Notes: generated by a model from the sequence alone, not told the origin. A stretch of DNA of 49,841 nucleotides from a bacterium (GCA_025774245.1 JALGWI010000015.1:1-49841), one strand, 5' to 3'; numbered from the stretch's first letter, positions 5,356 to 23,569 are shown. A program made the numbers and translations.

Positions 5356-5925
5356 ATGCTCACGAAAGAAGAACTCGGTCGCAGACTCAGAATCGCTCGC
5401 TTCGAGCGCGGCATGACCCTGAAGGAAGTGGCGGCCCGTTGTGGCATGTCCGCCACACACATCTCTGAGGTCGAGCGCGGCAAGACCTCCCCCACCATCG
5501 GCGCGCTGCAGAGGATCTCGAAGGCCCTCGGCGAGAGGCCGTCGCACTTCGTCCGCGAGGACGCGCTGCCCCAGGTCCGGCTGACCAAGGCCTCCGACCG
5601 CTGCAAGTTCTACGCGGCCGATCAGGAAGGGACGCCGCTCCAGCTCGAGATCGTGAGCCCCGGCGTGCCCGGCGGATACATGCAGATCTTCCACAGGACC
5701 GTACCTATCGGGCACGGTGCGAAGGGGTTCCCGATGATCGGCGAGGTCGTGCTCCTGTGCCTGAAGGGGATGCTCCGCATCACCTCGGGCGAACACAAGA
5801 ACGTGCTCCGAGAGGGCGACACGATCCAGATGCGCCTGGACGACGGTTGGAACGGCGAGAATATCGGCGAAGACGAAGCCGAACTCTACGCGATGCTCGT
5901 CTCGCCGACGCTGTTCACGGTCTAG
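5356..5925 (+). CDS. XRE-family regulator with C-terminal cupin domain, copy 1
   Basis: A 189-residue cytoplasmic transcription factor. Residues 6-60 are a Cro/C1-type helix-turn-helix (GMTLKEVAARCGMSATHISE, then VERGKTSPTIGALQRIS). Residues about 105-185 form a cupin-2 beta barrel expected to sense a small ligand. Regulators of this build control amine, amino acid or sulfur metabolism, but the ligand here is unknown. The next gene is a paralogue 62 bases downstream, with near-identical DNA in the helix-turn-helix part and strongly diverged cupins. Dyads over its promoter suggest autoregulation. Confidence 0.85.
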   Translation: MLTKEELGRRLRIARFERGMTLKEVAARCGMSATHISEVERGKTSPTIGALQRISKALGERPSHFVREDALPQVRLTKASDRCKFYAADQEGTPLQLEIVSPGVPGGYMQIFHRTVPIGHGAKGFPMIGEVVLLCLKGMLRITSGEHKNVLREGDTIQMRLDDGWNGENIGEDEAELYAMLVSPTLFTV

Positions 5926-5987
5926 ATTCGGAAGGACCCCGAGAGCCCCGGAACAGTTGTGGACCCAAGCCGGGAGGAGGGTAGGCA

Positions 5988-6557
5988 ATGCCGACCAAGG
6001 AGGAAGTGGGACGCAGGGTGCGCATGGCGCGCTTCAGGCGAGACATGACCCTGAAGGAGGTCGCCACCCGGTCCGGCATGTCCGCCACGCACATCTCCGA
6101 GATCGAGCGCGGCAAGACCTCCCCCACCATCGGCGCGCTCCAGCGAATCGCGTCGGCGCTCGACGAGCGGCCTGCGCACTTCGTCGAAGAGCGTGATGCT
6201 CCTCTGGCCGTGCTCACGCGGAAGGACGACCGCACGAAGGTCTTCGTCTGCGATGAAGAAGGGCACGTCCACAACATCGAGCGCATCAACGCGGATCCGC
6301 CGTGGGCGACCCTGAGGATCGTCAAGGGCGGAGGCAACCCGGGCGAGCGGGCCGTCAGGCCACCCGAGCCCGGCGAGCTCGTGATGCTCGCCATGAAGGG
6401 CATGGTCCGGGTCACGGTCGGCGACAACTCGGCCGTACTGCGCGAGGGAGACACGATCCAGTTCCCCCTCGAGACCGGCTACACCGTCGAGACGCTCGGC
6501 GAGGAGAACAGCGAGGTCATCGGCATCGGCGCCTACCCGGCCCGACGCGGCTGGTAG
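5988..6557 (+). CDS. XRE-family regulator with C-terminal cupin domain, copy 2
   Basis: This 189-residue paralogue of the preceding gene has the same length and plan: helix-turn-helix at residues 6-60 and a cupin at about 105-185. The DNA-recognition helices are almost the same, and a 37-base stretch (5471-5507 and 6103-6139) is identical at the DNA level, while the cupin halves share little. The pair may therefore bind the same sites but answer different ligands, or form heterodimers. It is in an operon with copy 1 and ends at a strong terminator. Start ATG with AGGAGG about 15 bases upstream and GGGTAGG nearer. Confidence 0.85.
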   Translation: MPTKEEVGRRVRMARFRRDMTLKEVATRSGMSATHISEIERGKTSPTIGALQRIASALDERPAHFVEERDAPLAVLTRKDDRTKVFVCDEEGHVHNIERINADPPWATLRIVKGGGNPGERAVRPPEPGELVMLAMKGMVRVTVGDNSAVLREGDTIQFPLETGYTVETLGEENSEVIGIGAYPARRGW

Positions 6558-6597: not shown

Positions 6598-6627
6598 GAG
6601 AGCCCGCCCCCGTGGCGGGCTCTCTTT
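6598..6627 (+). terminator. Rho-independent terminator after the XRE pair
   Basis: GAGAGCCCGCC (6598-6608) and GGCGGGCTCTC (6614-6624) form an 11-bp stem with a five-base loop, followed by TTTGTG. Confidence 0.8.
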
Positions 6628-6775
6628 GTGCCCCACCTTCCCGGTCACCGGGCCCATTCCCGCGGCAGCCGTGCCCCGATATTCCTGACTGATCAATCGG
6701 GAACTCCCTGAGGGCCCCCTCCCGGGGTCCCCCGTCGGTCCGAGACGCGATCTCTTCTCAGTAACACTTGAGAAA

Positions 6776-6791
6776 TGGCACATTCTGTGCT
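6776..6791 (+). promoter_or_regulatory. Sigma-54 (-24/-12) promoter of the minor pilin operon
   Basis: TGGCAC (6776-6781), five bases, GTGCT (6787-6791): the invariant GG (6777-6778) and GC (6789-6790) are exactly 12 bases apart as in the TGGCAC-N5-TTGCW consensus. Immediately upstream is an inverted repeat TTCTCA (6755-6760)/TGAGAA (6769-6774). Transcription would start near 6802, giving a leader of about 93 bases to the first minor pilin gene. The region from the previous terminator (6627) to here has no other support for a gene. Confidence 0.65.
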
Positions 6792-6894: not shown

Positions 6895-8286
6895 ATGAGA
6901 AGGACGCCGGATTACTTGAGAGACCAGTCGGGAACCGTTCTGCCGGCGGTCATCGTCCTCACGTTCATCATGCTCATCATGACGGCGGCCGTTTTCCAGT
7001 TCGGGGCGCAGGACGCCACCCTCGCCGCCCGGGACGTGGAGAGCTCCCAGGCGCTCTATCTCGCCGAGGCGGGCCTCGCGAGAGCGCACACGTGGCTCGA
7101 GGCGCAGGAGGATCCTCCCGTGGGCATCGCGACGATCCATCCCTTCGGCGCGGACCCGGACAGCCTGATGGAAGGAACCTACTGCGTGGAGATCCGACCC
7201 GCGCCGGGGAACGCCACCGCCGGACGCAAGCGCTACACGATCGTGTCGGACGGCGCGAGCGGTAACAAGAGCCGGACGGTCACCCTCGACGTCGCGACGC
7301 GGTCGTTCGCCCAGTACATCTACTTCACCGACCTGGAGTACCTGCCGAACTCCTCGACGCCGGTCTGGTTCTGTTCGGCCGACTTCCTCGACGGCACGGC
7401 CCACACCAACGGCCAGCTCCACCTCTTCGGCGACCCGACCTTCGGGGGCCACCTGTCGAGCGCGCACGGCGGCCCCGACGACGGGAACCCTGATCACGAC
7501 CCGTCGTTCATGTACTACAACGGGAGTTTCTGGAACCATCTGGAGACCGCCGCACCCAGCAACGCGCCCTACGATGAACCCGCCTTCGAGGAAGGCTACG
7601 AGCTGGGAACGAGCGCCGTCGAACTCCCTGAGTTCGTCGACGATCTGGAGATCCTCTCGGAGAACGGCGGCATCCACATCGACGGGAACTACGAGGTCAT
7701 TCTCGGGAGAAGGACCGCGATCGGCACGCTCCACGGGTACATCAGCTACCGCCTCCCGTTCGGAGACTGGACCGACGTCGAGATCTCGTCGACGAACGGC
7801 GTCTTCTTCGCCGACGGGGACATCAGCATCAAGGGCATCCTCGACGGGAGTCTCACGGTGGCGTGCTCGGGCGACGTCAGCATCACGGACGACATCGTCT
7901 ACCGCGATGCCGATCCGCTCAACGGTCCGAACCCCGGGTGCGACGACTACCTGGGTCTCGTGGCGCAGTCGAACATCATCCTCAGTGACAACCGCGCCAA
8001 CAGCAACGACTGCAACATCCACGCGCACATGATGGCTCTGGACACGTCGTTCACCGCCGAGGGCTACAACGGCGGGAGCCCGAGAGGGACGCTCACCGTC
8101 CATGGAGGAGTCATCCAGAAGTACCGCGGGGCCGTCGGGACCGGCTACCTCAGCAACGGTGAGGTCATCATCTGCACGGGGTTCGCGAAGAACTACCACT
8201 ACGACACCAGGTTCGACGCCGTCCAGCCGCCCGGCTACTTCGTCACGGGGGAATACGAGCGGCTGGCCTGGAGGGAGGTCTCCTAA
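6895..8286 (+). CDS. PilX-like large minor pilin, copy 1
   Basis: A 463-residue type IV pilus accessory protein. The N-terminus is short and basic, then QSG followed by a hydrophobic helix (TVLPAVIVLTFIMLIMTAAV), the layout of PilX/GspK-type prepilins that lack the usual Glu5. The remainder is a large extracytoplasmic region rich in Gly, Asp, Asn and aromatic residues and ends in RLAWREV. It resembles DUF4900-type PilX proteins. The ATG has AGGGAGG eight bases upstream; an in-frame ATG at 6775 overlaps the sigma-54 promoter and cannot be the start. First gene of a run with pilW- and pilV-like genes and a second large PilX-like gene. Likely a pilus-tip or initiation component; function inferred. 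Confidence 0.8.
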   Translation: MRRTPDYLRDQSGTVLPAVIVLTFIMLIMTAAVFQFGAQDATLAARDVESSQALYLAEAGLARAHTWLEAQEDPPVGIATIHPFGADPDSLMEGTYCVEIRPAPGNATAGRKRYTIVSDGASGNKSRTVTLDVATRSFAQYIYFTDLEYLPNSSTPVWFCSADFLDGTAHTNGQLHLFGDPTFGGHLSSAHGGPDDGNPDHDPSFMYYNGSFWNHLETAAPSNAPYDEPAFEEGYELGTSAVELPEFVDDLEILSENGGIHIDGNYEVILGRRTAIGTLHGYISYRLPFGDWTDVEISSTNGVFFADGDISIKGILDGSLTVACSGDVSITDDIVYRDADPLNGPNPGCDDYLGLVAQSNIILSDNRANSNDCNIHAHMMALDTSFTAEGYNGGSPRGTLTVHGGVIQKYRGAVGTGYLSNGEVIICTGFAKNYHYDTRFDAVQPPGYFVTGEYERLAWREVS

Positions 8287-8297
8287 GGAGCGCGACC

Positions 8298-8840
8298 ATG
8301 AAAACGAGAACACGCAGGAAACGAGGAGACGGGCGGGCCGATCGTCGCGGAACGTTCGTGGCGCCCGTCCGCACGCAGGCCGGCTTCACCATCATCGAGC
8401 TTCTGGTCTCGATCGGCGCGGTGCTCACCGTCATCATGGCGACCGTCGCAACGTACCTCGGCACGACGCGGTCGTGGGAGGGCACGTCGACCCTCACGCG
8501 AGTGCAGCGAGAGGCGTCGTTCGCGCTGGAGGTCATGGGCCGTGCCATCCGGAAGGGCAGCACCGTGGACATCGGCGCTGCCGGCGATTCGCTGAGGATC
8601 CTCTTCTGGACCGGAAGCACCGACAGTCTGGTGGCCAGCTTCTACGTGGACGACCAGGGATGTCTGCGAAACCACACGGGCATGGTCCTCGTGGACGGCG
8701 CGGACTCCCTCTCGTTCGTGAGTAGCAACGGCAGGACGGTCAACATTGACATCGTGATCAGGGGCGACATGGGTACGGAGCAAGCCACGAGCGACGACCA
8801 CCTGGTGCTCATGTCCTCGACGATATCGTGCAGGAACTGA
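8298..8840 (+). CDS. PilW-like minor prepilin
   Basis: A 180-residue prepilin. After a basic leader of about 28 residues comes the type III cleavage site AG/FTIIELLVS, with Glu5 of the mature protein and a hydrophobic N-terminal helix for membrane insertion and pilus assembly. The QREASFALEVMGRAIRKG segment after the helix is characteristic of PilW/GspJ-type pilins. It begins 11 bases after the first PilX-like gene and is five bases from the next pilin, so it is translated from the same transcript. It is expected to be processed by PilD (12795-13556) and to prime pilus assembly with the other minor pilins. Confidence 0.82.
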   Translation: MKTRTRRKRGDGRADRRGTFVAPVRTQAGFTIIELLVSIGAVLTVIMATVATYLGTTRSWEGTSTLTRVQREASFALEVMGRAIRKGSTVDIGAAGDSLRILFWTGSTDSLVASFYVDDQGCLRNHTGMVLVDGADSLSFVSSNGRTVNIDIVIRGDMGTEQATSDDHLVLMSSTISCRN

Positions 8841-8865
8841 TCTCTTGAAGACGGAGGGTCGACTG

Positions 8866-9402
8866 ATGAGGACTGTAGAGCGGAGAGCGGGTGGCCCCGC
8901 AGTTCGCAGGAGCCGCAGGAGGACCCGTCCCCTCGCTCCGCCTCTCCTCGGGGGGGGAGCGAGCGCGGGGCTCGGAATGGTGGAGATCCTCGTCTCGGTA
9001 GTGGTGCTCAGCATCGTGATCGTTCCGATCTTCAACTCCCTCGTCTCAGGGAGGATCCTCGCCGCGCACCGGGGTGAGAAGCGGATGGCGCTGCGCCTCG
9101 TGGAGCGGAAGGTCGAGCAGCTGATGCAGGCGGGCTACGGCTCGAGCGGGAACGACGCCAACGTTCAGAGCGTCAACCTCGATGTCGGCGCGCACCCCAG
9201 CGATCCCGGCATCGTGGTGAATACCCGCGGCGACTCTCATGCCGGGAACGACGTGCTCGGAAGCCTGACCTGGTTCGTGACGGAGGCCGTGTGGTCGAGT
9301 CCGGGGGATCCCGTCTACGCCAAGGAGGTCGAGGTGAAGCTCGTCTGGCCGTCGGCCTCGCCCCGCGACAGCCTCACCGTAACGACGCTGATCGGAGGGT
9401 AG
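8866..9402 (+). CDS. PilV-like minor prepilin
   Basis: A 178-residue prepilin with a long basic and glycine-rich leader. Cleavage after the Gly of SAG gives mature LGMVEILVSVVVLS with Glu at position 5, followed by the hydrophobic helix. The segment MALRLVERKVEQLMQAGY after the helix is typical of PilV/GspI-type pilins. I chose the ATG at 8866, which has GGAGGG seven bases upstream, over an in-frame TTG at 8845. Sits between the PilW-like and the second PilX-like gene in the same operon. Confidence 0.8.
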   Translation: MRTVERRAGGPAVRRSRRRTRPLAPPLLGGGASAGLGMVEILVSVVVLSIVIVPIFNSLVSGRILAAHRGEKRMALRLVERKVEQLMQAGYGSSGNDANVQSVNLDVGAHPSDPGIVVNTRGDSHAGNDVLGSLTWFVTEAVWSSPGDPVYAKEVEVKLVWPSASPRDSLTVTTLIGG

Positions 9403-9496
9403 GCGCGCCGCCCCCCCTGCGACCGGGGGCAGGGTAGGCGCAGGTGTTCGCCGAAGTGCCGTGAGGACGGCCAAGGCGAGAAGAGGGGGTGAAGTC

Positions 9497-10933
9497 ATGA
9501 CAGCCTTCAGACGATTCATGAGATGGAGGAGAGAACGCCGCTGGAACGCTCGCGGCTCCGCGCTCGTGGCCGTGATGCTCATCGGCACCGTCATGCTCAT
9601 TCTCTCCCTCACGGTGTTCCAGTTCGGCTGGCAGGATGCGATTCTCGCCAAGCGCGACGAGAGCCAGGCCCGCGCGCTCTTCCTGGCGGAGTCGGGACTG
9701 GCGATGGGACTCTCCTGGCTCAAGGCCCAGGACGCGCCCCCCGATTCCACCACGACGATGCACCCGTTCGGCGCGTATCCCCAGACGCTCGCCGGAGGAA
9801 CCTACACCGTCACGATCGAACCCGACGCGCTCAATCCCGGAGCGACGCGGCTCATCTACACGATCCGCTCCACCGCCACGTCGGAAGGGCGCACCCGCAT
9901 TCTCGAACTCGACGTCTCCACCGGCACGGTCGCGAACTACCTCTACCTGACCAACCGAGAGCACATGCCGGGCGGCGGAGCCCCGCTCTGGTTCTGCGAC
10001 ACCGACGTCATCGACGGCCCCATGTTCACGAACGACCAGATCAGCATCTTCGGCGATCCCGAGTTCCTGGACATCGTGGGAAGCGCCTACGGCGGCCCCG
10101 ACGATGCCGGCAACGACCCGGGGTTCCTCTACTACAACGGCGACGAGCACAACCACATCGAGTCCGCAGCACCCAGCAACGCTCCGCACGACAACCCCAT
10201 CTTCCACGAGGGGTACGAGCTCGGGCTTCCGCAGGTCGAGTACCCGACAGCCAGCGCCGTGAACGACCTCGAGGTCATGGCGGCAGCGGCTGGGATTACC
10301 CTTACCATGGGTCCCTACGATATCTGGTTGAGCCGCCCCGACGAGAACGGCGATCCGACGTACGGCTACGTGAGCTACAGCAGGAAGGGCAAAGACGAGT
10401 GGACCGACATCGACCTCCACGGCTTCAACGGGATCATCTACGTCCACAGCGGTCTCACGGTTCGAGGCACGCTCGACGGCGAGATCACGATCGTGTCCGG
10501 AGGTTTCGTCGACGTCGTCGACGACGTGCTCTACCGGGACAGCGATGCGAACGGCCCCAGCCCCAACTGCGACGACCTCCTCGGGCTCATAGCAGGGACC
10601 GACATCAACATCGTGAGCAACGAGCCCAACCAGACCGACTGCGTCATCCACGCCGCGATGGTCGCGATCAACAACACCATGAGGGTCGAAAACTGGAACA
10701 CCGGTTCCCCGAGAGGAACGCTCACGCTCTACGGCAGCCTGGCGCAGGACTTCCGGGGCCCCGTGGGAACCGGCTACTGGCAGGACGGCGAGTTCATCAT
10801 CTCGACCGGCTACCAGAAGGACTACCACTACGATACCCGCCTCCGCAACTACTCGCCCCCGGGGTTCATCGAGTTCCTCCAGAGCGGCTTCTACACGAAG
10901 CTCTACTGGCGCGAGATCACGCCGGGCTGCTGA
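9497..10933 (+). CDS. PilX-like large minor pilin, copy 2
   Basis: A 478-residue paralogue of the first PilX-like protein. ARG/SALVAVMLIGTVMLILSLTVF supplies the cleavage-site glycine and hydrophobic helix. The extracytoplasmic part carries landmarks shared with copy 3: LTNREHMPGGG, FTNDQISIFGDPEF, SAYGGPDD, GSPRGTLTLYG and a C-terminal LYWREI. Start ATG has AGGGGG upstream; an in-frame GTG at 9461 lacks a good site. A strong hairpin follows at 10978-11003, ending the operon before the separately promoted copy 3. Role in the pilus tip is inferred from position and architecture. Confidence 0.8.
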   Translation: MTAFRRFMRWRRERRWNARGSALVAVMLIGTVMLILSLTVFQFGWQDAILAKRDESQARALFLAESGLAMGLSWLKAQDAPPDSTTTMHPFGAYPQTLAGGTYTVTIEPDALNPGATRLIYTIRSTATSEGRTRILELDVSTGTVANYLYLTNREHMPGGGAPLWFCDTDVIDGPMFTNDQISIFGDPEFLDIVGSAYGGPDDAGNDPGFLYYNGDEHNHIESAAPSNAPHDNPIFHEGYELGLPQVEYPTASAVNDLEVMAAAAGITLTMGPYDIWLSRPDENGDPTYGYVSYSRKGKDEWTDIDLHGFNGIIYVHSGLTVRGTLDGEITIVSGGFVDVVDDVLYRDSDANGPSPNCDDLLGLIAGTDINIVSNEPNQTDCVIHAAMVAINNTMRVENWNTGSPRGTLTLYGSLAQDFRGPVGTGYWQDGEFIISTGYQKDYHYDTRLRNYSPPGFIEFLQSGFYTKLYWREITPGC

Positions 10934-10977
10934 TGCCCGGTGAGGCCTCCAGAGCACTGCCGGCCGCCTCCTCCACA

Positions 10978-11003
10978 ACGGCCGCCCTTCATGGGGCGGC
11001 CGT
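10978..11003 (+). terminator. Hairpin ending the first minor pilin operon
   Basis: ACGGCCGCCC (10978-10987) and GGGCGGCCGT (10994-11003) pair perfectly over 10 bp with a six-base loop. The tail is not U-rich, so termination efficiency is uncertain. Confidence 0.55.
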
Positions 11004-11098
11004 CGTCGTTCGTGCACCGGCACCGCTCCACGCCCCCTTCCTGCCCCCCGGAAAGCGCGCAAACGGGTCGCCGGTTTGCCTGACCACCGTCCGGAGAA

Positions 11099-11114
11099 TG
11101 GCACACCTTATGCT
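11099..11114 (+). promoter_or_regulatory. Sigma-54 (-24/-12) promoter of PilX-like copy 3
   Basis: TGGCAC (11099-11104), five bases, ATGCT (11110-11114), with GG (11100-11101) and GC (11112-11113) exactly 12 bases apart. The preceding bases GAGAATGGCACA resemble the promoter at 6776 (GAGAAATGGCACA). A start near 11126 leaves a leader of about 67 bases. Confidence 0.62.
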
Positions 11115-11192
11115 CCCTGTCATGCATGATACCGGCGTTGACTCCGGCCTGTTCAGGACGTGAGCGCAGGGCGCGACTCAGTGGAGGTAACG

Positions 11193-12617
11193 ATGAACAC
11201 CAGCAGAGGGGCCGCGGCGAGGCTGCGGGACCGGTCAGGTTCCGCCCTCATGGCGGTCATGTGGGGCGTCATCATCGCTCTCATTCTGGGAGTCACTGTC
11301 CTTCAGTTCGGCGTGCAGGACGCGACCCTCACCGTCGGCGAGGCGGAGCGGATGAAGGCCTTCTACCTTGCGGAGGGCGGTCTCTCCCGCGCGGAGTCAT
11401 GGCTCGAGGCGCAGGATCCGCCGCCGAGCGATGCGGTCACCTTCCACCCATTCGGGGAGTTCCCCGACACCCTCGGAGAAGGGGACTACTCGGTCGCGAT
11501 CACGCCGGATCCCATGAACGGGAGCCTGACCCGCAGCATCTACACCGTGCTCTCCACCGGACAGGTCGGACGCTTCGGACGCACCCTGGAGGTTGAAGTC
11601 GGGAACGGGACGTTCGCCAATTTTCTGTACTTCACCAACCGGGAGCACATGCCGGGCGGCGGGCCCCGCCCCTGGTTCACCTCCTCCGATGTCGTGGACG
11701 GCCCCGTCTTCTCGAACGATCAGCTCGGCATCCGCGGGGACCCCGTCTTCCTGGGCCGCGTCATGAGCGCCTACGGCGGTCCGGACGACCAAACGCAGAG
11801 CCACACCCCGTCGTTCGAGTACTACAACGGCGATCCGCACCAGCACGTGGAGTCCGCGGCTGCAAGCAACCCTCCGCACGACTACCCCACGTTCCATGGG
11901 GGATACGATCTGGGGCTGAACGAGCTCGAGCTCCCGAGCACCCAGGTTCTCCATGGCCTCAGATCCCTGGCCCAGGACGGGGGCATAGCCCTGAACGGGA
12001 ACTACGACATCTTCCTCTCGAGGCTCGACGGCGAGGGGAACCCCATGTACGGCTACGTGAGCTACCAGAGCCCGAACGGCGATTGGGTCGACGTGGACCT
12101 TGACACGTTCAACGGCGTCATCTACGTCAACGGCAGCTACAGCATCTCGGGAACGCTGGACGGTACCCTCACGGTCGCCACAAACGGTCAAGCCTACATC
12201 ACCGACGACCTCCTCTACAGGCACAGTGACGCCAACGGGCCCCTCCTCGGCTGCGAGGATCTCCTGGGCCTCATCTCGGGTTCGGACATCACGGTGGCGA
12301 ACAACATCCCCAACCAGGACGACTGCGTGATCCACGCAGCCATGATCGCGCTCAGCAACGGCCTCCGGGTGGAGAACTGGAGCACCGGATCCCCGAGGGG
12401 AACGCTCACGGTTCATGGGAGCATCGTTCAGGATCACCGGGGTCCCATCGGCTCAGGGGTGGTCAACGACGAGGGCTTCTATGAGGTTCACACGGGCTAC
12501 GACAAGGACTACCACTTCGACGAGAGGCTGCTGGACATCGCGCCGCCGAGCTTCTTCGACTTCTTCGTCCTCGGGGAATACCAGAGGCTGTCCTGGCGGG
12601 AAGTGATGGACGGCTGA
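11193..12617 (+). CDS. PilX-like large minor pilin, copy 3
   Basis: A 474-residue third member of the family. RSG/SALMAVMWGVIIALILGVTV forms the cleavage site and helix. The external region aligns by eye with copy 2 (FTNREHMPGGG, FSNDQLGIRGDPVF, SAYGGPDD, GSPRGTLTVHG) and ends in RLSWREV. GGAGG lies about seven bases before the chosen ATG at 11193; an in-frame GTG at 11160 is less well placed. It is transcribed alone from its own sigma-54 promoter and ends at the convergent terminator shared with pilD. Why three such proteins are kept is unknown; they may be alternative tip adhesins. Confidence 0.8.
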   Translation: MNTSRGAAARLRDRSGSALMAVMWGVIIALILGVTVLQFGVQDATLTVGEAERMKAFYLAEGGLSRAESWLEAQDPPPSDAVTFHPFGEFPDTLGEGDYSVAITPDPMNGSLTRSIYTVLSTGQVGRFGRTLEVEVGNGTFANFLYFTNREHMPGGGPRPWFTSSDVVDGPVFSNDQLGIRGDPVFLGRVMSAYGGPDDQTQSHTPSFEYYNGDPHQHVESAAASNPPHDYPTFHGGYDLGLNELELPSTQVLHGLRSLAQDGGIALNGNYDIFLSRLDGEGNPMYGYVSYQSPNGDWVDVDLDTFNGVIYVNGSYSISGTLDGTLTVATNGQAYITDDLLYRHSDANGPLLGCEDLLGLISGSDITVANNIPNQDDCVIHAAMIALSNGLRVENWSTGSPRGTLTVHGSIVQDHRGPIGSGVVNDEGFYEVHTGYDKDYHFDERLLDIAPPSFFDFFVLGEYQRLSWREVMDG

Positions 12618-12794: not shown

Positions 12795-13556
12795 CTACCC
12801 AAGCAACGCCAGATACCACCCGACGGCGGCGTCGCCCCACACCGTGGCGAGGAACGCCCCGATGGCGATGAACGGACCGAACGGGATGGTCCGGTCCCAC
12901 TCCCGTCCCCTCGTTGACATCGCGATGATCCCGACGACGGCTCCGAGGAAGAACGCCACGAAGAGGAGCAGGAGGACGGCCTGCCAGCCGAGGAACGCCC
13001 CGAGCATCGCCGCCAGCTTGATGTCTCCCCCACCCATGCTCTCCTTCCCGAACACGGCCGAGCCGAGAACAGCGATGAGGTAGAGCGCGCCCCCTCCGAC
13101 GGCGGCCCCGAGGAGGGACCCCGTGAACGTCGTGAGGCCGAGGAGCGGCGCCACGACGAGGCCGACCGCGATGCCGGGAAGCGTGATCCTGTCCGGGATG
13201 ATCCTGTGGTCGAGATCGATGAACGAGATCCCGAGGAGCACGTACGCGAGGGGCCAGAAGACGAAGAGCTCCCGCCCGACGCCGTACCGCGTGTACAGGA
13301 ACACGGGTATGGCCGCCGACAGGAACTCCACCACGAGGTATCGCGGTGAGATCCGGCTGCCGCAGCTCCTGCACCTGCCCCTGAGAGCGAGGTAGCTCAG
13401 GATGGGGACGTTGTCCCAGGGACGGATGCGACCGCCGCACGCCGGACACGACGACGGCGGGTTCACGATCGACTGCCCGAGCGGCATTCTGTGGAGGACG
13501 ACGTTCAGGAAGCTCCCGAACGCCGCCCCCACGATGAACAGAAGTGTGCCGGTCAA
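12795..13556 (-). CDS. pilD: Prepilin peptidase/N-methyltransferase
   Basis: A 253-residue polytopic inner-membrane aspartic protease that cleaves prepilin leaders and methylates the new N-terminus. The cytosolic zinc-binding loop CPAC...C..C is present (residues about 36-65). The two catalytic aspartates lie in FIDLDHRIIPD and in the GGGDIKL motif. The start is TTG, immediately after the pilQ stop with no gap, so it is probably translationally coupled. Last gene of the pilus operon and the presumed processing enzyme for all six or more prepilins in the window. Confidence 0.93.
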   Translation of the reverse strand: MTGTLLFIVGAAFGSFLNVVLHRMPLGQSIVNPPSSCPACGGRIRPWDNVPILSYLALRGRCRSCGSRISPRYLVVEFLSAAIPVFLYTRYGVGRELFVFWPLAYVLLGISFIDLDHRIIPDRITLPGIAVGLVVAPLLGLTTFTGSLLGAAVGGGALYLIAVLGSAVFGKESMGGGDIKLAAMLGAFLGWQAVLLLLFVAFFLGAVVGIIAMSTRGREWDRTIPFGPFIAIGAFLATVWGDAAVGWYLALLG

Positions 13557-14912
13557 CTAGTTCTCCTCGAACCTGCGCATGATCTCGCTGTCCAGTCGCT
13601 CGCTCATCCTCGAGAGCTCCTCGGCTCCGAGGATCTGCGGCGTCAGGAAGACCATGATCTCTGTCTTCTTCTCGGACGTCGCGGTCTTTCTGAAGAGGGC
13701 GCCCAGGAGCGGGATGTCGCCCAGAAGCGGAACCTTGTAGTGCGTCTCCACGATGTCGGTCCTCAGGAGGCCGCCGATGACGATCGTCTGCTTGTTCTTG
13801 GCCATGACCGTCGTGACGGCGGTCCGCGACTTCGTGTCGACCGCATCATTGGGGAAGAGCAGCGACTTCTGTGCGGCGGCGACGATCGGCTCGATCTTCA
13901 TGGTGACGAACTCGTCGTTGTTGATGTGCGGCGTGACCCTGAGCGTGATACCGATGTCGCCGTAGATCGGCTCGACCGTCGAACCGCCTCCACCCTCGCT
14001 CGAGTGGTACGTCACCTTCCTCGCGAGAGCGATCCGCTCCGTGATTCCGATGTAGGCTTCCATGTTGTCGAGCGTGAGGATCTGCGGCTCGGCGAGCACC
14101 TCGATCAGGCCGTCCTTCTTCATCGCGGCGATCCGGACCTTCAGATCCTGCCACTCGGTGAACGACTCGAACTTGCCGAAGGTCAGGTCGAAGATCCCGG
14201 GGGCGTCCGCATCGGTGTTGAACGTCGTGCCGTACGAGTTCCCGTCCTCCGCCTGGTAGTCGAAGAACTCCCACTCCACGCCGAGTTCTCTCTCCGCGCC
14301 GGCATCGATCTCGACGATCTTCGCCTGGATCAGGATCTGCCCGGTCGGCTCGTCCAGATCCTCAGCGAGGCTCTGGAGCGTGTTCATGTTCTCGGGGATG
14401 TCGGAGATGACGAGCGAGTTGGTTCTCGGATCGACGACGATCGTCCCGGCTTCCGTCAGGACCCCCTCGAGGGTCGGAAGAAGCTCGGCCGCGTCGGCGT
14501 AGTCGGCGTGGACGATCTCCGTAACGGTGGCCACGGGCGGGCCCTCGGGCGCATCCATGATCACGTAGATGTTCGTGCCCTTCTGCCGCGTGTACCACAT
14601 TCCGTTTGCGCGCATGATGGCCGCGAGGGCGTCCTCCACGAGAACGTCCTCGAGGTAGACGTTGATCCGCTTGCCCACGAGGTCGGAGCCGATGAGGAAG
14701 TTGATCCCCGACTTCTGGGTCATGACTTTGAGAACGTTGCCGAGCGTGACGTCCTGGAGGTTGAGCGAGATCCGCTGGGCCCTCCCGACCGGCGCGCTCG
14801 CGGTCTCCTCCTGTGCCCACGCGCCGCTTGCAGCCGAGAGCATCAGGAGCGCGACGAGAATCACCGGGACGACCGTGCTCGGCCGTATCGCGCTGGAGCA
14901 TCTGTTGGACAT
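13557..14912 (-). CDS. pilQ: Type IV pilus secretin
   Basis: A 451-residue outer-membrane secretin through which the pilus exits. A signal peptide ends near GAWA-QEE. An STN/N0-like domain follows (SLNLQDVTLGNVLKVMTQKSG region), then an N1 module (about 125-190), then the secretin C-domain with the conserved VPLLGDIPLLGALFRKT close to the C-terminus. It is short relative to proteobacterial PilQ (about 700) because AMIN domains are missing. It sits between pilP and pilD in the usual order and 11 bases from pilP. Confidence 0.92.
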   Translation of the reverse strand: MSNRCSSAIRPSTVVPVILVALLMLSAASGAWAQEETASAPVGRAQRISLNLQDVTLGNVLKVMTQKSGINFLIGSDLVGKRINVYLEDVLVEDALAAIMRANGMWYTRQKGTNIYVIMDAPEGPPVATVTEIVHADYADAAELLPTLEGVLTEAGTIVVDPRTNSLVISDIPENMNTLQSLAEDLDEPTGQILIQAKIVEIDAGAERELGVEWEFFDYQAEDGNSYGTTFNTDADAPGIFDLTFGKFESFTEWQDLKVRIAAMKKDGLIEVLAEPQILTLDNMEAYIGITERIALARKVTYHSSEGGGGSTVEPIYGDIGITLRVTPHINNDEFVTMKIEPIVAAAQKSLLFPNDAVDTKSRTAVTTVMAKNKQTIVIGGLLRTDIVETHYKVPLLGDIPLLGALFRKTATSEKKTEIMVFLTPQILGAEELSRMSERLDSEIMRRFEEN

Positions 14913-14923
14913 CTTGTGCCTCC

Positions 14924-15436
14924 TTACTCCACGATCAGGTCAAACCGCATGGACCTGTACATCAGAACGACTCTGTCGATACCTATCTCCGTGATTCTCG
15001 CCCCCTTGATCTCGTCGCCGATGCGGAAGGCGTCTCCGTCGATCATCGCGACCGGACTCTCCGAATCCCAGACGATGCCCTGGAGGGCCATGTATGGAAG
15101 CGTGGTCGCCGGGGCCGGCCTGTAGACCTCCTCGACGTCATTGGAGACCACACGGTCGGTCGCCAGGGCCACCAGGGGATCGCGTAGAGTGTCTCCCGTG
15201 TACGGCTGTCGCTGTCCCGACTGAGAGACCCTCGCAACAGCGGCGAGGTGCTCGGGACGCGAGTCGACGACTCCGTCCTCCGCCGTGCTCCACCAGGAGC
15301 CGGAATCGGACGCCGAGGCGCTCGACCCGATCCCTCCCGCGAGCGCGAAACGGACGACGACCGTCAGGATCAGCGCGCCCCCCACACCAATGAGGAGGAT
15401 GATCAACCTCTTCGACATTCCGCCGGATACCTGCAT
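14924..15436 (-). CDS. pilP: PilP-like pilus assembly protein
   Basis: A roughly 170-residue inner-membrane protein with one N-terminal membrane helix (RLIILLIGVGGALILTVVV) and a C-terminal beta domain (LQGIVWDSESPVAMIDGDAF) resembling PilP/GspC modules that link PilO to PilQ. It lacks the lipoprotein cysteine of proteobacterial PilP. I chose the ATG at 15436, preceded by AGAGAGG; an in-frame GTG at 15478 directly abuts the pilO stop and is the alternative. Identity rests on the gene order pilM-N-O-P-Q more than on strong motifs. Confidence 0.75.
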   Translation of the reverse strand: MQVSGGMSKRLIILLIGVGGALILTVVVRFALAGGIGSSASASDSGSWWSTAEDGVVDSRPEHLAAVARVSQSGQRQPYTGDTLRDPLVALATDRVVSNDVEEVYRPAPATTLPYMALQGIVWDSESPVAMIDGDAFRIGDEIKGARITEIGIDRVVLMYRSMRFDLIVE

Positions 15437-15478
15437 GCTCCAGTTGCCTCTCTGACTCCCCCGTCGACCCAGCGTCAC

Positions 15479-16144
15479 CTAGTCTTTCCAGGAGACGACC
15501 CCGATTACGATGCTGACATCGCTCTCTCCCATCGCGGAATCGCGGACGTCCATCTCGACCTGCTTGACGACGAGGCGCCGCGGCGATCCACTGAGAAGGC
15601 TGAGAAACTCGCCCACCTCGTGGTAGGAACCGCGCAGGTCGAGCTCGATGGGGTACTCCCGCATGTCCTTCGCGATCTCGCGATCGGCGAGGAGTCCCGG
15701 TTCACCGACGATCTTGAGGCCGGCGGATTCCGCCATCGCCTCGATCTCCGAGATGACCGTCATCCTCTGATCGCCGCGCATCAGCCCGGCGCGGAAGCCG
15801 GCGACGACGTCCCGCGACGTCGCGAGCAGTTCGAGGTCCTGCATGAGCGTCTTCTCTGTGACGAGCGCGTCTCTGCGGTTCCATATCGGCCTCAGGACGA
15901 AGAAGTACGACAGGTTGACCGCCACGGTGTACGTGATGATCGCGAGCGCGACGATCCTCCACGTGGCGCGCCTGCCGCGGGTGCCGGGAGCCGGGCGCGA
16001 GACGCGAGAGAGCGCGCCGGCGACACCTTCACCCACGCGCGCGGCAATCGCGCCCTTCGTCGTGCTGGGGACCGGCTGTTCCGCGTCCTGCGCCTCGTCC
16101 CGAGAGCGACGTTCCCCTTCGTCTATGGCGTGAAGAAGTCCCAT
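15479..16144 (-). CDS. pilO: PilO-like pilus alignment protein
   Basis: A 221-residue inner-membrane protein. A basic N-terminal tail of about 62 residues precedes one membrane helix (TWRIVALAIITYTVAVNLSY), then a coiled segment and the PilO alpha/beta domain ending in YPIELDLRGSYHEVGEFL, a typical PilO signature. It pairs with PilN to form the periplasmic alignment complex between PilM and PilQ. ATG with AGGAG five bases upstream. It follows pilN by 47 bases. Confidence 0.87.
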   Translation of the reverse strand: MGLLHAIDEGERRSRDEAQDAEQPVPSTTKGAIAARVGEGVAGALSRVSRPAPGTRGRRATWRIVALAIITYTVAVNLSYFFVLRPIWNRRDALVTEKTLMQDLELLATSRDVVAGFRAGLMRGDQRMTVISEIEAMAESAGLKIVGEPGLLADREIAKDMREYPIELDLRGSYHEVGEFLSLLSGSPRRLVVKQVEMDVRDSAMGESDVSIVIGVVSWKD

Positions 16145-16191
16145 GGATCTCCTGCGCCCTCCGCCGCCGTGAAATCCCGTCCGCTCGATGG

Positions 16192-16815
16192 CTACCGCAT
16201 CGGACAGATGATCTCGAACCCGATGACGTCCTTGCCACCAATCCTCCGCACGCCGGTCTCGGCGGCCCGCGCGTCGGTTATCCTGTCCCCGAGCTCCGGC
16301 CTCTCCTCGAGACCCTGCGCGAACTCCCGAATGAGCTCACCTCCGCGCTCGATGCCCGCCGCGACCGCCCCCTCGAGGAGGATGCCTCGCTCGTTGCTCC
16401 TCCCACCCCTCTTCCGCCCGGACGACGATCTGACTCGAGGAGGGGACACCCTCACGCTCGTCAGCCACACGCTGTCCGGAACGGCGCCAGCGATGCCCGT
16501 CCAGAGCGACGCGATGTCGGTTCTTCCCTTGAGCATCTTCTCGATGTTGTCGAGCTCAGGCTTCATCTGCTTCATCGTCGATTCCAGCTCGCCCCGCGCC
16601 AGCGTCCGGCCACCGAGGGCGTCACCCACGCTCTCCCTGAGCGCCTCTACCTCACACGCGTACACGGCGACGGTTCTCGAAGAGGACACGGCGAAGACGA
16701 CGATCGCGACGATCGTCAGCACGTACACGAGCCCGCCCAGCATCAGAAGCGAGAAAGCCACATTCTTCTGGCGCTGAGGGACGACGCGGGATCTGATGAG
16801 ATTGATGTCATACAT
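16192..16815 (-). CDS. pilN: PilN-like pilus assembly protein
   Basis: A 207-residue bitopic inner-membrane protein. It starts MYDINLIRSR, close to the conserved INLLP-type motif that docks in PilM, followed by a membrane helix (VAFSLLMLGGLVYVLTIVAI) and a coiled region. The middle GRTDIASLWTGIAGAVPDSV and VWLTSVR match the PilN/GspL-like ferredoxin-fold domain. The ATG at 16815 lies two bases after the pilM stop, indicating translational coupling; longer upstream frames only run antiparallel to nothing and overlap pilM out of frame. Confidence 0.88.
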   Translation of the reverse strand: MYDINLIRSRVVPQRQKNVAFSLLMLGGLVYVLTIVAIVVFAVSSSRTVAVYACEVEALRESVGDALGGRTLARGELESTMKQMKPELDNIEKMLKGRTDIASLWTGIAGAVPDSVWLTSVRVSPPRVRSSSGRKRGGRSNERGILLEGAVAAGIERGGELIREFAQGLEERPELGDRITDARAAETGVRRIGGKDVIGFEIICPMR

Positions 16816-16817
16816 CG

Positions 16818-17852
16818 CTAGCTCACGTCCTTCTGCATCGCCAGGGCCGCCGCGACCGCCATTGACGGCGCGAGATCGTCCACAGTCGCACGGTCGAATC
16901 TCCTGTCGTCGATGCGCACCCGGTCGAAAGGGCTCCACCGGTGCACGGGGACACCCGTCGCCTCCGCGATGCTCTCCGAGAGACCCGGGAGGCGCGAGCA
17001 GCCGCCGCAGATGAAGATCGCTTCGACATTGCTGCCGTGCTCTCGAGTCTGGTAGTAGACGAGCGATCGCCTCACCTCTCCGACCAGGCGGTATGTTGCC
17101 GTGCTGAGGGCACGCGCGACCGAATGTCGTTCGCAGCTCTCCTCGAGCTTCGCCCTCTCCGCTTCCGCCATGGAGATGCCGACGGCGGCCGCGATTGCCA
17201 CGGTGAAGGAGTCGCCGGCGATCTCGATGTCCCTCACAAACGGCGCCGAGCCGCGCTTGGTGATCCCGATGCTGCTGTTCGATGCGCCCACGTCGATGAC
17301 GGCGACCGTCTCGGGGAGGTCCTCCTCGAGAAGGAGCGCCTCGAGCAGCGCGATGGCGTCGACGCTCACGAGCCGTGGCTCCAGATTGACCTTCTCGATG
17401 AGGCGCGTCTTGAAGTCGACGTCGTCCTTCCTGACGGCGACGAAGAGCACCTCGGTCTTCTCGCCCTCGTCCTTCGACGAGCCCAGAACCGTGTGGTCCA
17501 CGTAGGCGTCGTCGATGTCGAACGCGATGACCTGGCTGCCCTCGTACCAAGCAGCGCCCTCGAGTTCCGCGGGAGACAGCTTCGGAAACCAGAAGCTCCT
17601 CACCGCCACGTGAGAACCGCGGACGGAGGTTGCGACTCGCTTCGACTCGACACCCGCCGTCTCGAGCACCGACGAGACGGCGCTCTCGTAGGCCTCCGGC
17701 GAGTCCGGATCGTCGACCACCGCGAGCCCGATGCTCTCGAGGACGAACTCCGGAGCCTCACCGGACAGCTCGACGAGCTTCACCGCTCTCGACCCGATGT
17801 CGAGGCCGAGAAGCCGCTTCTGCTCCTGTGTCAGCAAGTGGCATTCCCCCAC
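16818..17852 (-). CDS. pilM: PilM actin-like pilus assembly ATPase-fold protein
   Basis: A 344-residue cytoplasmic protein of the FtsA/actin fold. LLGLDIGSRAVKLVEL at the N-terminus is the phosphate-1 motif of PilM; VAVIDVGASNSSIGI is phosphate-2; EAIFICGGCSRLPGL is the adenosine motif. It binds the N-terminal tail of PilN and may connect to PilB. The start is uncertain: GTG at 17852 gives MGECHLLTQEQ, whereas TTG at 17837 has GGGGGAA placed well upstream. It begins the pilM-N-O-P-Q-D segment about 120 bases after the third pilin gene; the gap shows no clear promoter or terminator. Confidence 0.92.
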   Translation of the reverse strand: MGECHLLTQEQKRLLGLDIGSRAVKLVELSGEAPEFVLESIGLAVVDDPDSPEAYESAVSSVLETAGVESKRVATSVRGSHVAVRSFWFPKLSPAELEGAAWYEGSQVIAFDIDDAYVDHTVLGSSKDEGEKTEVLFVAVRKDDVDFKTRLIEKVNLEPRLVSVDAIALLEALLLEEDLPETVAVIDVGASNSSIGITKRGSAPFVRDIEIAGDSFTVAIAAAVGISMAEAERAKLEESCERHSVARALSTATYRLVGEVRRSLVYYQTREHGSNVEAIFICGGCSRLPGLSESIAEATGVPVHRWSPFDRVRIDDRRFDRATVDDLAPSMAVAAALAMQKDVS

Positions 17853-17973
17853 AGTTCACCCGTCGGCCCTCTGCACGGAAGCGAGAACTCGCGCGTGGGC
17901 TTTCGGGAAGCACCCAATAGCAGTGGGCATTCAGTGTCTCCTCCGACCGGTCGTCACTGTGCGACGCGGGCGG

Positions 17974-18408
17974 CTACCACACGTACGTGAGCTCGCCCGA
18001 CTGGTCGATCGTCACGACGATCGTAGAGACCTCGGCGCCCTTCGTCGCGACGCTCGCTGACCCGTCACACTCGATCGTGAACGAATTGGCCACCGGCGCC
18101 CCGCTGAACGTGTAGCACTCGCTGCTGAAGTACCGTCCGCGGAGATCGAAGTCCGACATGCCCAGGACGCCGCCGACCGTCACCCGCGCGCCGTCCGTGA
18201 AGCTGGCATCTGCGTACCTGCCGAACTCGGCGTAGTGCGTGCGCATGACATCGCGAAGCGATCCGAGCGCAGCCGTCGCCTCGGAGGCCTTCGATCGCTC
18301 AGCGGTGACCTGGTACATCGGGACCGCGACGGCGGCAAGAACCCCGACGACGATGACGACGATCATGAGTTCGACGAGAGTGAATCCCCTGCGATCTGCC
18401 GGCCGCAT
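17974..18408 (-). CDS. Type IV pilin, copy 3 of three
   Basis: A 144-residue prepilin with leader RRG/FTLVELMIVVIVVGVLAA, Glu5 and AVPMYQV after the helix. The globular part has two cysteines (SECYTFSG and IECDGS) that could form the C-terminal disulfide loop. It shares the pattern ARVTVGG.LG.S.F.L.GRYFSS with copy 2. It is shorter than proteobacterial PilA. The gene lies 63 bases after copy 2. Which of the three pilins is the major subunit is not certain; this one is a plausible minor or alternative subunit. Confidence 0.88.
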   Translation of the reverse strand: MRPADRRGFTLVELMIVVIVVGVLAAVAVPMYQVTAERSKASEATAALGSLRDVMRTHYAEFGRYADASFTDGARVTVGGVLGMSDFDLRGRYFSSECYTFSGAPVANSFTIECDGSASVATKGAEVSTIVVTIDQSGELTYVW

Positions 18409-18471
18409 TCGCTTACCCTCCCCACAGCGAGAAACACCTGTGTCCGTACGCGTTTGCCCCTGACGGTGCTC

Positions 18472-18924
18472 CTACCAGTCCGACGTCGTGATCGTGCCGG
18501 CTTCATCGATCGTGCACACCACCCGCGCCACCTCGCTCGCGTACGGAGCGGTGCTGCTCGATCCGTCGCACGAGATGCGGAACTCCCCGGCCGTGGGGGC
18601 GCCGTCGAACGTGTAGCTCGCGCTCGAGAAGTAGCGTCCCAGCAGGAAGCCGTTGCTCAGGCCCAGGGTTCCTCCCACCGTCACACGGGCACCGTCTGTG
18701 AAGCTCGCGTTCCCGTACGTCCCGTGTTCCGCGTAGCGCTCGCCCATCGCCTGTCGGATCAGGCCGAGCGTGGCCACGGCCTCCGTCGCCTTGGAGCGCT
18801 CCGGCACGACCTGGTAGAGCGGTACCGCGATCCCGGCCAGCACACCCACCACGACGATCACGATGACAAGCTCGATCAGGGTGAAGCCCGTCAGGTCCTT
18901 CAGCTTCTTCCGACCGTGCCCCAT
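18472..18924 (-). CDS. Type IV pilin, copy 2 of three
   Basis: A 150-residue prepilin with leader ending LTG/FTLIELVIVIVVVGVLAG. I place the start at 18924, where AGAGGGG lies about seven bases upstream, rather than at an in-frame start 12 codons earlier. Unlike the other two copies it has one obvious cysteine in RISCDGSSS plus VVCTIDEAG further on, so the disulfide arrangement differs. It is separated from copy 1 by a very stable hairpin at 19054-19081, so its level is probably lower than that of copy 1. Confidence 0.87.
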   Translation of the reverse strand: MGHGRKKLKDLTGFTLIELVIVIVVVGVLAGIAVPLYQVVPERSKATEAVATLGLIRQAMGERYAEHGTYGNASFTDGARVTVGGTLGLSNGFLLGRYFSSASYTFDGAPTAGEFRISCDGSSSTAPYASEVARVVCTIDEAGTITTSDW

Positions 18925-19053
18925 GACCGGCCCCTCTACTGCACTGGCCCCAGCGCACACGGCGTGCCGCGCGCGTTCCGACTCAAACCAGCGCCCCGGA
19001 TCGGGCGCTCACTACAGAGATAGCAATCCCGTCGAATACGACCTCCTGCTGTC

Positions 19054-19081
19054 GGGGGTGGCGCCCAAGGGCGCCACCCCC
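19054..19081 (-). terminator. 13-bp GC hairpin between pilin copies 1 and 2
   Basis: GGGGGTGGCGCCC (19054-19066) and its exact reverse complement (19069-19081) leave only a two-base loop (four in practice). On the minus strand it follows the first pilin gene by about 17 bases and is not followed by a U tract. This is more like a 3' end stabiliser or partial attenuator that raises the first pilin over the downstream genes than a full terminator. Confidence 0.6.
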
Positions 19082-19098
19082 GTTTGAAATCAATGCTC

Positions 19099-19530
19099 CT
19101 ACGACTGGCCGATATCGCCCTGTTCATTGATCGTGCGAACGATGGTCGATACCTCCGAAGCGTTCGGAGCGGCGCTGTTGGCACCGTCACACTCGATGTC
19201 GAATGTGGTCGCCGCCGGCGCACCAGTGAACGTGTAGCACGCTGAACTGAAGTAGCGACCCATCAGGTCGTTGTCGCTCACATCCAGAACACTGCCGTTC
19301 GTGATCTGGGCTCCGTCCGTGAAGTTGGCGTTGACGTACGTACCGTGCTCAGCAAAGTACACACGCATCGCACCACGGATCGTGCCGAGAGCCGCAACCG
19401 CCTCCGACGCCTTGGCGCGCTCAGTAGCGCCCTGGTACATCGGGATGGCCACAGCAGCCAGGATGCCGACGATAATGACAACGATCATCAGCTCGACGAG
19501 GGTGAAACCCCTCTCGTTCTTACGCAGCAT
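19099..19530 (-). CDS. pilA: Type IV pilin, probable major subunit
   Basis: A 143-residue prepilin with short leader MLRKNERG/FTLVELMIVVIIVGILAA, Glu5, then AIPMYQGATERAKASEAVAALG and a short globular domain with cysteines in SACYTFTG and IECDGA. The ribosome site AGGAGGTGAATAACA-ATG is the strongest in the cluster, and a stable hairpin follows, both consistent with a highly expressed major pilin. It is the first of three tandem pilins and lies 48 bases after pilC. Copies 1 and 3 are closer to each other at the helix than to copy 2. Confidence 0.9.
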   Translation of the reverse strand: MLRKNERGFTLVELMIVVIIVGILAAVAIPMYQGATERAKASEAVAALGTIRGAMRVYFAEHGTYVNANFTDGAQITNGSVLDVSDNDLMGRYFSSACYTFTGAPAATTFDIECDGANSAAPNASEVSTIVRTINEQGDIGQS

Positions 19531-19578
19531 TGTTATTCACCTCCTTTCCTGCTCATTTTTCCCCCTGCCAAAATCGGT

Positions 19579-20790
19579 TTACGCACCAATACCTGTCGCC
19601 ATCTGGAAGATGGGCAGGTAGATCGCCAGCACGACCACGGTCACGATGGCCCCGAGGCCAACGATCAGCGCCGGCTCGATCATCGACGTGAGCCCGCTGA
19701 TCGCCGCGTCCACCTCCCTCGTGTAGAACTCGGAGACCTTCTCCAACATCTGCGGGAGGTTTCCGGAGCCCTCGCCCGCCGCGACCATGCTGACTACCAT
19801 CTTCGGGAAGACCGGCGACTCCGCGAGCTTCTCCGAGATCGTCGAACCGTTGACGACCCCGACGCTCACTTCCTCCACCGCCGATTGGATAACGAGGTTG
19901 CCCGACGTCTCTCCGACGATCTCGAGGGCGGCGATGACCGTGACGCCGTTCTCCATGAGTGTCCCGAGAGTCCTGCTGAAGCGGGCGATCGCCGCCTTGA
20001 GCACGAGCTTCCCAAAAACGGGCGCCTTGAGGATGAGCTCGTCCAGCTTGCGCCTCCCGCCCGGGGTGGCCCCCCACTTCCAGAGGAAGATGCCTCCCCC
20101 GACACCGAGCAGAATCTCCCAGACGAGGTTCCTGCCGATGAACCTGGACATGCCGATCAGCGTCTTCGTGAGCAACGGCAGCTCGAGGTCGAAGCTCTCG
20201 AAGATCCCCTCGAACTGCGGAATGAGGAAGAGCATGATGCCCGCAACGGCGAAGATGAAGAACCCGGCGATGAAGGCCGGATAGGCCGACGCGGACATGA
20301 TCTTCTTCGTGAGCGCGTCCCGCGCCTCGAGGTAGTCGGCGAGCCGCCCGAGGACGCCGGGAAGCGCACCGGACTCCTCGCCCGCCTTGACCATGGAGAC
20401 GAAGAGTACGGAGAAGATCCTGTCGTGCTTGGCGAGCGCCTGGGACAGGGTCGAGCCGGCCTCGATGTCGGAGGTGACCTGCGCGAGCACATCTCCCAGT
20501 CTCTCGTTCTCGACCTGGTCTCCGATCCCGTCGAGCGACTCGAGGACCGGAAGCCCTGCCTCGAGCATCGTTGAGAGCTGCCGACACAGGATCGCGAGAT
20601 CCCTGACCTTGACCCTCTTGCCTCTCCTGGTGCGGACCGGCTTGGAATGAGCAGAGGCCGGGGCGACCGCGATGACGACGAGGCCCTCCTTACGGAGCTG
20701 CGAGACCAGGCTCAGCTCGCTGTCCGCGAACCGCGTGTCCTGGACCGTCTTGCCGCCTACTGCCTTTGCCGTGAAGACGAAGTCGGGCAT
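19579..20790 (-). CDS. pilC: Type IV pilus inner-membrane platform protein
   Basis: A 403-residue polytopic protein of the PilC/GspF family, on which PilB and PilT act to assemble and retract pilins. Two homologous T2SSF domains (about residues 65-190 and 270-395) each carry the typical motif seen as VKAGEESGALPGVL and VAAGEGSGNLPQML. Membrane helices follow each (FIAGFFIFAVAGIMLFLIP; ALIVGLGAIVTVVVLAIYLP). The N-terminal KAVGGKTVQDTRFADSELSLVSQLRKEG region is also family-like. It lies 33 bases after pilT. Confidence 0.94.
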   Translation of the reverse strand: MPDFVFTAKAVGGKTVQDTRFADSELSLVSQLRKEGLVVIAVAPASAHSKPVRTRRGKRVKVRDLAILCRQLSTMLEAGLPVLESLDGIGDQVENERLGDVLAQVTSDIEAGSTLSQALAKHDRIFSVLFVSMVKAGEESGALPGVLGRLADYLEARDALTKKIMSASAYPAFIAGFFIFAVAGIMLFLIPQFEGIFESFDLELPLLTKTLIGMSRFIGRNLVWEILLGVGGGIFLWKWGATPGGRRKLDELILKAPVFGKLVLKAAIARFSRTLGTLMENGVTVIAALEIVGETSGNLVIQSAVEEVSVGVVNGSTISEKLAESPVFPKMVVSMVAAGEGSGNLPQMLEKVSEFYTREVDAAISGLTSMIEPALIVGLGAIVTVVVLAIYLPIFQMATGIGA

Positions 20791-20823
20791 GCTGCGTTCC
20801 CTCTCCGTGCCGGGGGACCCGGC

Positions 20824-21918: not shown

Positions 21919-21958
21919 GTTTCGCCCCGTGTGGTGTCGGAACCGCCCGCCGTGGCTT

Positions 21959-23553: not shown

Positions 23554-23569
23554 TGCAAGGCTCATGCCA
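23554..23569 (-). promoter_or_regulatory. Sigma-54 promoter of the pil operon
   Basis: On the minus strand TGGCAT (23569-23564), five bases, TTGCA (23558-23554): the -12 element is perfect, and GG and GC are 12 bases apart. The expected start near 23544 leaves a leader of about 53 bases to pilB. It is the best of three such matches in the window, all in front of pilus genes. Confidence 0.7.

Follow-up and report, generated by a model that had tools for sequence, protein, structure and literature searches.

Why should a single type IV pilus locus encode three large minor pilins, each of which looks suited to the pilus tip? This question is raised by a 49,841-nucleotide stretch of DNA (GCA_025774245.1 JALGWI010000015.1:1-49841; hereafter the window) from a metagenome-assembled genome of an uncultured member of Candidatus Eisenbacteria (3.2 Mb, 97% complete; near-identical record JAUWRQ01). 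On its plus strand, the window carries three intact DUF4900 paralogs, here called X1, X2 and X3, with the minor pilin genes W and V sitting between X1 and X2. We put at about even the chance that X1, X2 and X3 are alternative, sigma-54-controlled tip subunits which compete for one tip position. This reading is favored by the single W and V beside an X that varies from one to three copies at this locus, by the lack of the glutamate at position 5 (Glu5) in every X, and by signs that X3 forms a transcription unit of its own.

Three intact paralogs with ComZ/GspK-like features

X1 (6895-8286, 463 amino acids), X2 (9497-10933, 478 amino acids, homologous to both others) and X3 (11193-12617, 474 amino acids) were delimited by placing their start codons according to conservation and Shine-Dalgarno sites (GGGAGGCG for X1, GGAGG for X3). 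The longer open reading frames starting at 6775, 9461 and 11160 are probably not in use; the first of these is disfavored because 6775 falls on a conserved promoter. Full-length BLASTP comparisons gave identities of 46% (X1-X2), 45% (X1-X3) and 53% (X2-X3), with E values from 1e-146 to 4e-178, far beyond chance. These intact, related frames confirmed the claim of a first-pass annotation of this DNA that three large paralogs share one pilus locus, and the motifs which it had quoted (SxxGGPDD, GSPRGTLT and a C-terminal xLxWRE) were present in all three copies as SA[HY]GGPDD, GSPRGTLT and [RK]L[AYS]WRE. Its proposal that copies 2 and 3 are closer to each other also held: among the three copies, TNREHMPGGG was restricted to X2 and X3, this pair showed the highest identity, and in a 63-protein tree X2, X3 and the unlinked orphan copies described below formed one clade (100/97) without X1.

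With regard to protein family, X1 and X3 scored above the cut-off of PF16241 (DUF4900; 29.4 bits) with 40 and 43.5 bits, respectively, and X2 below it with 22.4 bits. PilX_N (PF14341; curated cut-off 25.5 bits) was missed by X1, X2 and X3 (19.0, 15.8 and 16.8 bits), and none of them reached the NCBIfam GspK equivalog cut-off of 130 bits, X2 being the only one to score at all (19.9 bits). The best PDB sequence for a profile of 40 homologs was ComZ of Thermus (6QVI; E 0.001); phmmer matches in the PDB to CEACAM were dismissed as chance. The AlphaFold2 model of X1 had a mean predicted local distance difference test (pLDDT) score of 90.1 and, according to its DSSP secondary structure, consisted of a long helix (residues 15-70), a small sheet (strands 89-147), a large insert rich in beta structure and a final strand (450-462) with the LxWRE motif. 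X1 is thereby predicted to share the ComZ-like arrangement of a pilin fold interrupted, ahead of its last strand, by such an insert, and in a Foldseek search of the model against the PDB, 6QVI was the sole match below E 1e-3 (E 7e-11). ComZ itself has been argued to fit solely at the pilus tip (PMC6561018). The external domains of X1, X2 and X3 are strongly acidic (pI 4.1-4.3, net charge about -30).

According to published work, the first subunit, which forms the tip, is marked by large size together with a hydrophobic residue at position 5 (PMC5207764). Glutamate at this position was absent from all 60 X homologs and present in W, in V and in all three PilA pilins, so that the X proteins show the GspK-type combination of a subunit lacking Glu5 with partner minor pilins that have it. 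Since PilX_N remained below its cut-off, Glu5 was absent throughout and the X1 model matched ComZ only, the name ComZ/GspK-like tip pilins suits X1, X2 and X3 better than PilX. The earlier label "PilX-like" was thus loose as a name, but the assignment to large minor pilins of the tip type stood, supported by the missing Glu5, the inserted beta-rich domain, the fold match and the linkage both to W and V and to PilB-PilQ. PilY1 (PF05567) was found in none of the 20 phylum genomes, while the same model was positive in four of 21 other bacteria.

The two partners lie on the same strand. W (8298-8840; Glu5 within GFTIIE) occupies the GspJ/PilW position, has a weak PF07963 match and an invariant Glu5, and is kept in both pilus loci of relatives. 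Its AlphaFold2 model showed a long helix plus a sheet and had no significant match in the PDB; its GspJ identity therefore comes from position and sequence only. V (8869-9402; Glu5 within GLGMVE; start uncertain, at TTG 8845 or a later codon) occupies the GspI/PilV position, shows weak N_methyl, PilV and GspI matches, and is conserved alongside X and W in relatives.

Copy number of X varies on a constant W/V base

All 20 genomes of the phylum examined carry X, with one to nine copies each. The window genome (G000) has seven: the window triplet, a second triplet on contig C93 and one orphan on contig C115. The locus of the window (locus A) has the order aminotransferase, XRE-cupin genes, X, W, V, with or without extra X, and then the PilD...PilB operon. 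It holds one X in eight relatives (G003, G004, G006, G007, G011, G013, G017 and G019), two in six (G001, G002, G008, G010, G015 and G018) and three in both the window genome and G005; in the latter, W follows the X copies. Regardless of the number of X, locus A has one W and one V, a constancy which suggests that X is the exchangeable part.

The tree separated locus A from a second locus (locus B; order tgt, apgM, lnt, one to three X, PilB2, PilC, pilin, V, W, PilM-like). X1 was orthologous to most single copies of relatives, X2 had orthologs after V in G001, G002 and G008, and X3 was confined to the window species, i.e., G000 and a near-identical contig in G012/JAUWRQ01. Separate expansions, or homogenization by conversion, were seen in g3, in g4 and several times in locus B. 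Judged from this distribution, the window triplet is lineage-specific, since eight relatives keep a single copy in the equivalent locus. The triplet had been presented as unusual, which is right insofar as about half of the relatives are single-copy here, but not in that tandem expansion recurs in the phylum and multiple PilX have been described for Xylella (PMC9956873) and Myxococcus (PMC7541494). Outside the phylum, full-length X relatives were found in some bacteria, mostly one per genome.

G012 was rejected as independent support for the triplet. This assembly (L043, L044, L115 and L116) contains two rpoN genes, one 99.4% identical to that of the window genome and the other about 82%, which points to misbinning; it is probably a mixed bin whose X contigs come from a near-identical organism.

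The copies outside the window had features of their own. The second triplet (L011, 7811-13435, on C93) lies before a second PilB, its neighboring copies are 74-81% identical, and each has a sigma-54-type site. The copies differ more in the initial part of the insert (48-70% identity) than in the rest (71-89%), and copy 2 contains a low-complexity stretch, WEGWEEWEDWEE. The orphan (L012, 9587-11086, on C115) has a sigma-54-type promoter and pilus genes are absent nearby; orphans of this kind also occur in G001, G003, G008 and G017.

Sigma-54-type sites precede X1, X3 and pilB

Sigma-54 sites were scored with a weight table representing the -24/-12 consensus. The three best sites of the 50 kb window, where 0.10 sites scoring at least 18 are expected, precede X1, X3 and pilB: TGGCACATTCTGTGCT at 6776-6791 on the plus strand (score 18.3) for the X1-W-V-X2 unit, conserved upstream of X1 in relatives; TGGCACACCTTATGCT at 11099-11114 on the plus strand (score 18.3) for X3; and TGGCATGAGCCTTGCA at 23554-23569 on the minus strand (score 18.6) for the pilB-T-C-pilA-M-N-O-P-Q-D operon. 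The distance to the helix glycine codon is 155 bp for the X1 site, 139 bp for that of X3 and 143 bp for that of the orphan copy. Across the relatives, sites scoring at least 18, at a distance of roughly 125-190 bp from the downstream helix glycine codon, were found for 27 of 57 X genes versus one of 383 other genes, this single one being the window's own pilB. They fall into two types, TGGCACAATCTGTGCA in locus A and TGGCATGGAACTTGCW in locus B.

A site of this kind stands before the first X of nearly every array, and array-internal copies mostly have none. The window genome is the exception: there, sites scoring at least 17 were found for six of its seven X genes (17.1, 17.1 and 18.6 for the locus B copies). 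No sigma-54 site was found upstream of X2, which is probably co-transcribed with X1-W-V. Between X2 and X3, a GC-rich strong hairpin (10978-11003, plus strand) was predicted by RNA folding, with an 11 bp stem in both the minimum free energy and the centroid structure; it has no T run, and the z-score of the region is only -1.45. This hairpin is a possible end of the X1-X2 transcript. The suggestion that copy 3 has its own promoter was supported by the -24/-12 site downstream of it, an equally good site preceding X1. A scan for sigma-70 promoters returned no sense-direction site and one antisense match only, which left a sigma-70 promoter for the X genes unsupported.

rpoN was present in all 20 phylum genomes, and the window genome encodes eight full sigma-54 activators (PF00158). 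The -24/-12 sites at conserved distance, together with RpoN and these activators, predict that the genes concerned are RpoN-dependent.

Selection and gene conversion

Relative to the near-identical G012 copies, the ratio of nonsynonymous to synonymous substitution rates (dN/dS) was 0.21 for X1, 0.29 for X2 and 0.43 for X3, and all three appear to be kept by purifying selection. No recombination was detectable among the window's X1, X2 and X3 on the basis of synonymous differences (p 0.21-0.39). Strong mosaicism, with p at the permutation floor, was by contrast seen between tandem X copies in G018 (L074, 8328-11123) and G005 (L072, 1244-5702). In G018, synonymous difference between the tandem copies was 0.07 in the external domain versus 0.55 in the N-terminal pilin part, and it is this great disparity between the two parts, in G018 and G005 alike, which implies gene conversion.

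Neighboring genes and the pilus operon

The X1-W-V-X2-X3 block faces, in convergent orientation, a complete type IV pilus operon (12795-23491, minus strand) which, according to Pfam, NCBIfam and gene order, encodes PilD, PilQ, PilP, PilO, PilN, PilM, three PilA-type pilins, PilC, PilT and PilB. One of these pilins (19099-19530) has a weak, below-cut-off match to ComP_DUS (PF16732). Directly upstream of X1, at 5356-6557, lie two XRE-type regulator genes, one with a cupin match; such regulators are kept at the same place across the phylum, and G001 (L049) has as many as six. A terminator-like hairpin (GAGAGCCCGCC...GGCGGGCTCTC followed by TTTG) was read from the sequence at 6598-6624 on the plus strand, between the XRE-cupin gene and X1. 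Directly upstream of pilB, a response regulator (23618-24727) has an HD (HD-GYP-like) output domain, by which cyclic-di-GMP possibly controls the pilus. Pfam thereby ruled it out as an activator of the NtrC/PilR type, and the sigma-54 activator would therefore be encoded elsewhere.

Discussion

How could three such proteins serve one pilus? Each X is predicted to combine a pilin helix and sheet, with a prepilin G|S/T site and no Glu5, with the large acidic beta-rich domain ahead of its last strand. W and V, which have Glu5, would form a shared subtip, and whichever X is present would cap it, to the exclusion of the others, and provide the contact surface of the pilus, presumably by binding a ligand. 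The ancestral tip unit may have been X1-W-V, to which X2 was added behind V and X3 as a separate unit under its own sigma-54 promoter; the unlinked orphan may be a fourth tip for the window pilus, and the parallel triplet on C93 may serve a second pilus or a locus resembling type II secretion systems (T2SS). Through RpoN, an enhancer-binding activator would turn on pilus assembly and tip genes jointly, and the separate sigma-54 promoters would allow differential expression and different tips.

Several observations weigh against alternative tips. X1 and X2 appear to be on one transcript and hence to be made together, and X1 is the first gene in its operon, while GspK-type genes are usually last. 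The match to ComZ has a low whole-chain template modeling score (TM-score) of 0.3. The external domains of X1, X2 and X3 are no more diverged than their pilin parts; the hyper-divergence looked for there was not seen, and sequence divergence therefore does not point to ligand diversification in the window triplet. Moreover, the conversion in G018, and in copies 1 and 2 of G005, keeps external domains alike and N-terminal pilin parts different, a pattern which non-equivalent positions in one tip would explain at least equally well. Finally, the strict sigma-54 pattern was not enriched genome-wide (41 matches versus 57 for the reversed pattern), and support for the promoters is therefore positional and phylogenetic, not experimental; four of the 41 matches lie within the roughly 2 kb summed upstream of the seven X genes.

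A hetero-oligomeric tip, with two or three X stacked in non-equivalent positions, would accommodate the apparent operon of X1 and X2 as well as the G018 copies, with their recently homogenized external domain on distinct pilin parts. We consider it rather unlikely, given that no X has Glu5, so that each looks built for the top position and stacking becomes less likely, that single-copy loci in at least eight relatives do not require partners, and that W and V were not duplicated along with X. The many duplication events behind one to three copies at locus A, and one to nine per genome in one family, could also reflect dosage or redundancy, i.e., birth-and-death noise among tandem duplicates of the same function. 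This is unlikely for the window copies, which are old (45-53% identity, X2 being common to G001, G002 and G008), under apparent purifying selection and retain separate promoters.

That the X proteins are DNA receptors for natural transformation, like Thermus ComZ, is suggested by the exclusive fold match and by ComEC in 16 of 20 phylum genomes, but it is improbable here: no ComEC was found in the 97%-complete assembly of the window genome, although both other members of the genus have it, seven copies exceed the seeming need of DNA uptake, and the acidity of the external domains lowers the odds of DNA binding. The last argument is tempered by ComZ itself being without a clear positive patch (PMC6561018). 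As for decay of two of the three copies, which together with single-copy relatives had been named at the outset as what would refute the triplet's significance, such relatives do exist, but the extra copies do not look like remnants: intact frames, ribosome-binding sites, conserved motifs, dN/dS of 0.2-0.43 and the near-consensus promoter retained by X3 leave this explanation scarcely credible. With alternative tips as the preferred reading, we tentatively extend it to a phylum-wide, ComZ-like tip repertoire, in which only the terminal subunit would multiply on an invariant W/V subtip through tandem duplication, gene conversion and dispersal of promoter-plus-gene cassettes, sigma-54 promoters would make tip choice conditional, and modular tip switching would operate with two pilus machines per cell.

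These observations give DUF4900, a domain without assigned function, a context of tip pilin, sigma-54-type promoters and pilus operon; our literature search found no paper mentioning the domain and no description of the X gene family in such a layout. The 20 genomes, with one to nine X copies and a constant W/V base, constitute a natural experiment on pilus-tip diversification. If the tips are indeed exchangeable, diversification would proceed by one changed subunit, without PilY1, in an uncultured phylum of little-known surface biology.

Comparison with known systems

Among known proteins, ComZ of Thermus thermophilus (PDB 6QVI; PMC6561018) is the closest. Like X, it is a pilin whose large beta-rich domain (a solenoid) forms an insertion close to the C-terminal strand, it is encoded with minor pilins, a tip position has been argued for it, and it is the only significant fold match. 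It differs in that published accounts present it as a single gene within a competence locus and in that it binds DNA (K98/K233), whereas X occurs in three linked copies (seven per genome) with acidic external domains and sigma-54 promoters. GspK/PilX of T2SS and type IVa pili (T4aP; PMC5207764) resemble X in exceeding the major pilin in size, in having a hydrophobic residue for Glu5 and in their I- and J-type partners. X nevertheless falls below the PilX_N and GspK cut-offs, its insert is beta-rich and that of GspK alpha-helical, X1 is first rather than last in its operon, and no PilY1 was found.

In Xylella fastidiosa, PilX1-2, PilY1-1-3 and FimT1-3 (PMC9956873) are likewise minor pilin paralogs of divergent function in one pilus, but these are canonical PilX in separate minor-pilin sets rather than tandem tip genes, and no ComZ-type domain has been reported for them. 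The closest concept is that of Myxococcus xanthus, whose minor pilin/PilY1 clusters 1-3 (PMC7541494) and Kil Tips 1-4 (PMC12075869) provide several alternative, partly redundant tip sets per pilus machine; by comparison, the single-X relatives suggest that one X can suffice in evolution. Exchangeable tips are thus already known from Myxococcus, where the whole tip set is duplicated, PilY1 included in the T4aP clusters. The difference here is that only the tip subunit X multiplies, W and V remaining single, without PilY1 and often as promoter-plus-gene units.

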